IMG/VR virus record: IMGVR_UViG_3300005095_000132
Coordinates: 1 to 20,564 of that record
Length of the DNA stretch: 20,564 nt
Strand: one strand, 5' to 3'
From: a virus
Made by a program: the position numbers and the translations under genes
The notes under the pieces: model-generated
The model's database searches: none
What the model saw: only the letters and a program-made list of their open reading frames with translations
What the model was told of the DNA's origin: nothing
In this document: piece by piece, positions 2,657 through 11,607 of the stretch
Numbering within the stretch: position 1 is the stretch's first letter
Layout of the letters: the number at the start of each line of letters is the position of its first letter

Positions 2657-2938
2657 ATGCGCTACAACGCCAAAACCGACCAAAACCAGGCCGAAATCGT
2701 CGCCGCCCTCCGCGCCGTAGGCGCAACCGTTCACCCCATCCACCGCCTCGGCGGCGGCCTCCCCGACCTCCTCGTCGGCTACCGCGGCCAAAACTACCTC
2801 CTCGAAGTCAAAACCGCTACAGGGCATCTTACGCCCGACGAAGCCAAATTCTTCCAAACCTGGCGCGGCCAGGTCGCCATCGTCCGTAATATCACCCAGG
2901 CACTTGCCGCAATTGATATAACCAAATCCAATCCATGA
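2657..2938 (+). CDS. VRR-NUC-type PD-(D/E)XK nuclease
   Basis: 93 residues, the usual size of stand-alone phage VRR-NUC proteins. It shows the family core in order: an N-terminal helix with QAEIVAALRAVG, the loop HRLGGGLPDLLVG with catalytic-type D37, then the strand YLLEVK with E50 and K52, and a downstream GHLTPDEAKFFQTWRG segment. The D...ExK set fits a metal-dependent endonuclease related to Holliday-junction resolvases. In a phage it may act on recombination or replication intermediates. Its last codons overlap the methyltransferase start by ATGA, so the two are made together. A restriction-like role beside the methyltransferase is possible but not shown. There is no strong Shine-Dalgarno site, so translation may depend on the upstream gene. 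Confidence 0.85.
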   Translation: MRYNAKTDQNQAEIVAALRAVGATVHPIHRLGGGLPDLLVGYRGQNYLLEVKTATGHLTPDEAKFFQTWRGQVAIVRNITQALAAIDITKSNP

Positions 2939-3678
2939 CTGGTTCTCTTGTTTTATCCCTATTCCCCGGAATAGACGTCCTCGGCTTGGGCTTCGAAGAA
3001 GCGGGCTACACGGTCGTACGCGGCCCTGACCCCATGTGCGGTAGCCTGCACGACATACGCCGGTTTCATCCCCCTACCGGAGTATTCCGCGGCGTCATCG
3101 GCGGGCCGCCGTGCCAAGCGCACAGCAAACTGGCCGTTGTGGTGCGCGCCCGCTACGGGGAAGAGGCGGTGGCCCAAGACCTCATTCCCGAATTTGCCCG
3201 CGTGGTGCTGGAAGCCCGCCCGCGCTGGTTCCTGATGGAGAACGTCCCCGGCGCACCTGCGCCGAAAACGACGGGCTATGCGGTGCACTCGTTCCTGCTC
3301 AACAACCGCTGGCTGGGACAGGAACAGAACCGGCTGCGTCGCTTCTGGTTTGGCGTTCGCGACAACGACGCCGTGGATTTACGCACTTACATTCGCGGCT
3401 GGGTTGCGCTGGAACCCGTTGCATGGTCTCCGGCGGTGCTGGCCTCCGGGGCATTCAAACACGGTCGCGGACGGGTGCGCCTGAGTGCCAAATGCGGCCC
3501 GTCGCGGGAAACCGTACGGGAGGGGTTGCGCTTGCAGGGGCTTCCCGAAGATTTCTTCGACCAGTCCCCCTTTACCGTGAAAGGCCAACAGCGGCTTATC
3601 GGCAACGCCGTACCGCTGCCAATGGCCAAGGTTCTGGGCAAGGCCATTGCGTATTGGGAAAGAAACGACAAATTGTAA
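2935..3678 (+). CDS. C5-cytosine DNA methyltransferase (compact, Dcm-type)
   Basis: 247 residues. It transfers a methyl group from S-adenosylmethionine to cytosine C5. Motif I is LSLFPGIDVLGLGFEEAG (residues 7-24). Motif IV is GGPPCQ, with catalytic Cys60. Motif VI is ENV (102-104). Motif VIII is QNRLRRFWFG (131-140). Motif X is GNAVP (223-227). The target-recognition segment between motifs VIII and IX is only about 55-60 residues, so this is a short member of a family often above 300 residues; all key catalytic motifs are nonetheless present. No partner restriction enzyme is obvious, so it is probably an orphan methylase that protects phage DNA. Base use differs from the rest of the operon: it is G-rich rather than C-rich, which suggests recent acquisition. 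Confidence 0.95.
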   Translation: MTGSLVLSLFPGIDVLGLGFEEAGYTVVRGPDPMCGSLHDIRRFHPPTGVFRGVIGGPPCQAHSKLAVVVRARYGEEAVAQDLIPEFARVVLEARPRWFLMENVPGAPAPKTTGYAVHSFLLNNRWLGQEQNRLRRFWFGVRDNDAVDLRTYIRGWVALEPVAWSPAVLASGAFKHGRGRVRLSAKCGPSRETVREGLRLQGLPEDFFDQSPFTVKGQQRLIGNAVPLPMAKVLGKAIAYWERNDKL

Positions 3679-11233: not shown

Positions 11234-11601
11234 GCGCCTCTGCCTCCATGCGCCTTCGCCAACAGCGCAAACGCATCCTTCCACTGCTTCCAAGGCTCGT
11301 CTGGGGCCTCGCCTTCGTTGTCGCCATCCGGCGCGTCCAGCATCTCCCGCGACCACGTCGGCATGAACGCCTCCAATTTGAGCGTCTTTGCCTTCGGGTC
11401 GCTATGCACCGCAGCAACCGTCTGCGCCACGATAGCAGCCCTCACATCACCGGCCAGCACGCCCCACGGCTCCAAAGCGTAATACGCCATCCACTCGTTG
11501 AACTCCCGCGCGTTCATGCTGTCCAGCATGGCATCCACCGAGGGCATCCCCAGCGCCAGCGCCAACCGATAGGCAAACCGCCGCCGGGGATGCGCCCTTA
11601 G
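11230..11601 (-). CDS. Tail assembly chaperone gpT-like domain, made by -1 frameshift from gpG
   Basis: This is the downstream frame of the G/GT pair: 123 residues read after a -1 slip at 11601-11607, giving a fusion of about 248 residues. It starts LRAHPRRRFAYRLALALG and contains NAREFNEWMAYYALEPWG, the signature of lambda gpT-type proteins (DUF4035-like), followed by an acidic and Trp-containing tail. The only free-standing start is a TTG at 11565 with no good Shine-Dalgarno site, and using it would cut off the conserved RRRFAYR lead-in. The stop overlaps the tape-measure start. In lambda, gpGT recruits the tube protein to the tape-measure complex; the same job is expected here. Confidence 0.88.
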   Translation of the reverse strand, partial: LRAHPRRRFAYRLALALGMPSVDAMLDSMNAREFNEWMAYYALEPWGVLAGDVRAAIVAQTVAAVHSDPKAKTLKLEAFMPTWSREMLDAPDGDNEGEAPDEPWKQWKDAFALLAKAHGGRGA

Positions 11602-11607
11602 TTTTTT
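11541..11607 (-). promoter_or_regulatory. Programmed -1 ribosomal frameshift signal
   Basis: The minus strand reads GCA AAA AAC TAA at the end of gpG, placing the slippery heptamer A AAA AAC (11607-11601) in the correct frame directly before the stop. Downstream, AGGG plus CATCCCC (11598-11586, with a two-base CG bulge) can pair with GGGGATGCCCT (11551-11541). The main 7-bp stem starts 8 bases after the heptamer, the usual distance. The -1 frame then runs open into the gpT-like domain. Confidence 0.88.

Follow-up and report, generated by a model that had tools for sequence, protein, structure and literature searches.

A predicted programmed -1 frameshift at A AAA AAC links the G- and T-like tail chaperone frames of an IMG/VR virus

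Introduction

In phage lambda, a -1 frameshift near the end of gene G yields the tail chaperone fusion gpGT in addition to gpG (Levin 1993 and Xu, Hendrix and Duda 2004, both as cited in PMC5009743); the gpG:gpGT ratio is about 30:1, and the two products together guide assembly of the tail tube on the tape measure protein (PMC5009743). Frameshifting of tail chaperones is a textbook phage feature, already known, to which we add a further case from the IMG/VR virus record IMGVR_UViG_3300005095_000132, analysed here over its whole length of 20,564 bases (the window). On the minus strand of the window, a G-like chaperone gene ends in the slippery heptamer A AAA AAC, and the -1 frame continues into a T-like domain. 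Comparison with related loci makes it very probable that this is a lambda-type programmed -1 frameshift, predicted to yield gpG together with a fused gpGT product about 248 residues long.

Heptamers that end in AAC have been described in several other viruses. AAAAAAC was proposed for the chaperones that precede the tape measure gene in the phiCbK group and GGGAAAC for those of Colossus (PMC3556154); these heptamers also occur in the family studied here, but they come from a Caulobacter phage group, and they too are sequence-based predictions. In Acinetobacter phage Loki (gp12/gp13), AAAAAAC adjoins the stop of the G-like gene (PMC5313236), as it does in the window, again as a prediction and in a different phage, and Dragolir is possibly another such case (PMC6003738). 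For the haloarchaeal viruses HCTV-1 (G_GGA_AAC) and HCTV-2 (A_AAA_AAC), the proposed sites are the same two AAC-ending heptamers (PMC5009743), although the hosts of HCTV-1, -2 and -5 are archaeal.

Homologs of the window's gpG, at about 39% identity, are found in Streptomyces phages phiSASD1 (gp35/35.1) and Dubu (gp13/14) and in Rhodococcus phage Jflix2 (gp18/19). The depositors annotated a joined G-T gene in all three, and the slip-phase heptamer is GGGAAAC in phiSASD1 and Dubu and GGGTTTC in Jflix2; neither the heptamer letters nor the stem are those of the window. A text search for phiSASD1 together with frameshifting returned no literature match.

The window shares with lambda the order of its genes (tail tube, G, T, tape measure), a -1 shift, here predicted, close to where G ends, and a gpT domain (Pfam PF06223). 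It differs in the heptamer, which is GGGAAAG in lambda and here is AAAAAAC, placed directly at the stop and followed by a strong hairpin. The G-like protein also differs: a Pfam search returned no match for it, and it is recognized through PHROG 344 only.

The Slippery Heptamer and the Two Frames

The gpG-like gene starts with GTG, has an aaggaggt ribosome-binding site upstream (read directly from the sequence), and ends in the zero frame with TTA GCA AAA AAC TAA. The heptamer and stop codon together occupy 11607-11598, exactly the in-frame placement that the sequence-only reading had described. The -1 frame translates as LRAHPRRRFAYRLALALG...EFNEWMAYYALEPWG and, from the shift onward, as LRAHPRRRFAYRLALALGMPS...; it scores 62.5 bits (cut-off 25.9) for PF06223 (Phage_tail_T) and matches PHROG 337 with an E-value of 2e-19, which bears out the earlier assignment of this frame to gpT. 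The predicted fusion of 125 + 123 = 248 residues agrees with the length given before. The tail-tube and tape-measure genes thus enclose two overlapping frames, the first a G-like chaperone and the second, in the -1 frame, a T domain.

A chance motif has to be considered because the heptamer by itself carries no significance: the window contains a single AAAAAAC, against 2.66 occurrences expected for the bare motif. The case therefore rests on position, phase, and conservation. To assess these, we used a scan with the G protein that gave 80 viral loci; isolated phages were added, and 64 loci were left after removal of near-duplicates. A scan with gpT as the query gave 2 relatives only, and a scan of genome contigs gave 2 loci, neither of which is part of the heptamer test. 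With a slippery heptamer defined as XXX, then AAA or TTT, then any base (X XXY YYZ), the last 75 nucleotides of gpG in the 64 non-redundant loci contain 42 heptamers in the slip phase versus 1 and 3 in the other two phases, and the remainder of gpG contains 8:9:6 by phase. Even very divergent relatives keep the heptamer in the slip phase where G ends, so that the comparison proposed earlier came out in favor of the frameshift, and in the relatives that have it the -1 frame continues into the T domain.

Among the 42 loci, the heptamer is AAAAAAC in 23, GGGAAAC in 11, GGGTTTC in 4, and AAATTTC in 1; 39 of the 42 heptamers end in C, and 3 do not. The earlier caveat that an AAC ending is unusual is accordingly weaker than stated, since a final C is the rule in this family and other phages are reported to carry AAAAAAC at this position. 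In L040 (gpG stop at 3331), a close cousin of L037-L039, GAA GCA AAG TAA replaces GGGAAAC, and only an A_AAG tetramer precedes the stop.

The Downstream Hairpin

Immediately beyond the stop codon, the RNA is predicted to fold into a hairpin of 22 pairs. Its three outer pairs, GGG/CCU (11597-11595 with 11543-11541), begin 3 bases past the heptamer; the main helix of 12 base pairs, GCAUCCCCGGCG/CGCUGGGGAUGC (11593-11582 with 11555-11544), begins at the eighth base after it; and the top consists of 4 and then 3 base pairs around an 8-base loop. The sequence-only reading had placed the start of the main helix correctly at 8 bases from the heptamer but had given it 7 base pairs, whereas it has 12, with 3 pairs below and 7 above. 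The minimum free energy of the 66 bases from the stop is -41.6 kcal/mol (z -3.9), a stability that none of 200 shuffles attained, and z is -4.2 against shuffles that preserve the protein of the -1 frame.

Three relatives, L087 (84% gpG identity), L083 (66%), and L029 (44%), align with the window without gaps from the heptamer onward, and the exact register of the hairpin is backed by these four sequences only. Over the 22 pairs, 84% of the cells in the four sequences can pair, and 10 of the 22 pairs are altered on both sides yet still pairing, a result matched by none of 500 shuffles; when the partner strand is slid by 1-3 columns, no more than 3 such double-changed pairs appear. Compensatory changes of this kind had been named in advance as support for the stem. 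When a consensus of the three nearest sequences is folded independently, the same hairpin is recovered; six of its pairs are compensated, and one pair in the upper part is shifted. Between the window and L087, some of the stem changes also replace a gpT residue (H to R, M to A), which argues against simple wobble drift. In the window and its nearest relatives, a downstream RNA structure that would stimulate the shift is therefore present; among lambda-type G/GT frameshifts, such structures are common and not universal. The window's exact hairpin was also imposed on all relatives, and this failed beyond the nearest ones, as the stem drifts in register.

Proposed Mechanism

We propose that most ribosomes would halt at TAA and release the 125-residue gpG-like chaperone. 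A small fraction, stalled by the strong hairpin, would slip back by one base while tRNA-Lys occupies AAA and tRNA-Asn occupies AAC, bypass the stop, and continue in the gpT frame to give the gpGT fusion. The analogy with lambda suggests a division of labor, the G part binding the tape measure protein while the T part recruits the tail-tube protein. The sequences show the heptamer and its phase, the covarying hairpin, the two protein domains, the order of the genes, and the conservation among relatives; that the shift takes place, how efficient it would be, and what its two products do, we infer.

Several observations weigh against a programmed -1 shift here. E. coli ribosomes shift far less readily on A AAA AAC than on A AAA AAG (PMC5009743, PMC4066793), and the change from AAC to AAA is less well tolerated by bacterial ribosomes (PMC4066793); the low slip-proneness may be offset by the strong stem or by differing host tRNAs. 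Only the nearest relatives share the hairpin in its exact register; more distant ones have stems in other registers, and some of them have no significant stem (mean z -1.6 over the 42). The window also lacks, 10-12 nucleotides upstream of the heptamer, the Shine-Dalgarno-like GAGG that many relatives have.

In those relatives, GAGG or AGGA lies about 10-12 nucleotides upstream of the heptamer, a dnaX-like spacing (for example, L087, 2948-2951), and GAGG, AGGA, or GGAG is found within 22 nucleotides 5' of the heptamer in 37 of the 42, where 11 are expected. We do not claim a Shine-Dalgarno-like stimulator from this pattern, which is confounded by a conserved acidic pair, reaches only p of about 0.03 for codon choice, and has no counterpart at the usual position in the window.

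Alternative Explanations

A fused protein could also arise if RNA polymerase slipped on the run of six A's that the site contains, so that a subpopulation of mRNA would carry G and T fused and nearly the same protein would be made with no ribosomal shift. Relatives, however, use GGGAAAC, GGGTTTC, or AAATTTC at the same place, with no run above three; no long homopolymer is conserved among them, and the conserved feature is instead an in-phase heptamer together with a covarying downstream RNA hairpin. Six A's are in any case a short run for bacterial transcriptional slippage. Exchange among A-rich, G-rich, and T-containing heptamers leaves tandem tRNA slippage possible and polymerase slippage on a long run not, and because the in-phase heptamers vary in this way (mostly AAAAAAC or GGGAAAC), we favor a ribosomal event and judge the transcriptional one very unlikely. 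A homopolymer of six A's is also a typical site of sequencing error, and a one-base insertion or deletion, whether from sequencing or assembly or in a pseudogene, could have split a single continuous chaperone gene. The chance of this is negligible: dozens of independent contigs show the two-frame arrangement as well, as do isolated phages whose annotation joins the genes, and this recurrence already refutes it.

Separate translation of gpT, by an internal start or by termination and reinitiation at the gpG stop, would require no fusion at all, and a TTG (11565) and ATG codons do lie shortly past the gpG stop in the -1 frame. None of these candidates has a Shine-Dalgarno sequence, they fall inside or beyond the stem, and starting at them would remove the conserved PRRRFAYRLALALG segment. 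Furthermore, both nearest relatives have CTG where the window has the TTG at 11565, and in place of the ATG of LGM they have GCG or GTT, so no start codon is conserved in these two, and the independent gpT start in relatives that would have spoken against a frameshift did not emerge. As a separate start also leaves the in-phase heptamers unexplained, we consider it extremely improbable.

A Sister Clade with the T Domain in the +1 Frame

A sister clade (L043, L048, L049, L052, L057-L078, L080, and L081; the gpG stop of L058, for example, is at 3352) has no -1 heptamer at the end of gpG, and its gpT-like domain is in the +1 frame. Most members read CGA UUU CCN NAA GAA UCC UGA in the zero frame; L043, L070, and L073 are without UCC UGA, and UUU C alone is common to all distinct sister-clade sequences examined. 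At the homologous codon, the nearest -1 cousins of the clade (L050 and L079) carry G GGA AAA. This distribution suggests a change from a -1 to a +1 shift within one chaperone family, with UUU C as the candidate +1 site. A broader proposal, which we put forward tentatively and hold to be somewhat less than an even prospect, is that PHROG 344-type chaperones became committed to C-ending heptamers, a class preferred by eukaryotic over E. coli ribosomes, and that one branch passed from -1 to +1 shifting at UUU C of the homologous codon. If true, the family would be a natural experiment in which the direction of the shift and the slippery codon follow host tRNAs.

The interest of the locus stems mainly from this comparative pattern. 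The comparative set indicates that what is atypical by E. coli rules is normal for PHROG 344-type chaperones, and it points to a clade whose shift direction has seemingly changed. For the phage itself, the predicted frameshift corrects the gene model to gpG plus gpGT, where otherwise there would be one open reading frame and the other would be lost. The locus is also a further well-supported example of an AAC-ending slip site.

Genomic Context

The two chaperone frames belong to a siphophage-like structural block on the minus strand, which runs from the major capsid protein through the tail terminator, tail tube, G-like chaperone, and T-like frame to the tape measure (Table 1). The tape measure gene follows gpT directly, with an ATGA overlap with the gpT stop and GGAGG before its ATG.

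Table 1. Coordinates of the frameshift locus and its flanking genes in the window.
Feature	Position	Strand	Remarks
Major tail (tube) protein gene	12411-11986	minus	directly upstream of gpG; Pfam PF16461, 45.1 bits (cut-off 26.1); PHROG 158
gpG-like tail assembly chaperone	11975-11598	minus	125 aa; zero frame of the predicted shift; PHROG 344 'tail assembly chaperone', E 2.2e-25
Slippery heptamer A AAA AAC	11607-11601	minus	in slip phase; abuts gpG stop; conserved among relatives
gpG stop codon TAA	11600-11598	minus	immediately 3' of heptamer
Putative stimulatory hairpin	11597-11541	minus	22 predicted pairs; fold, covariation, consensus fold
gpT-like -1-frame extension	11601-11230	minus	123 aa past the predicted shift; open to 11230; no conserved start codon
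Tape measure protein gene	11233-9320	minus	PHROG 1535 and other tape-measure families, E down to 1e-25

Elsewhere in the window, an open reading frame at 2935-3678 on the plus strand, and thus opposite in orientation to the structural genes, resembles a C5 DNA methyltransferase (FPGIDVLGLGFEEAGY... GGPPCQAHS), as identified by eye.
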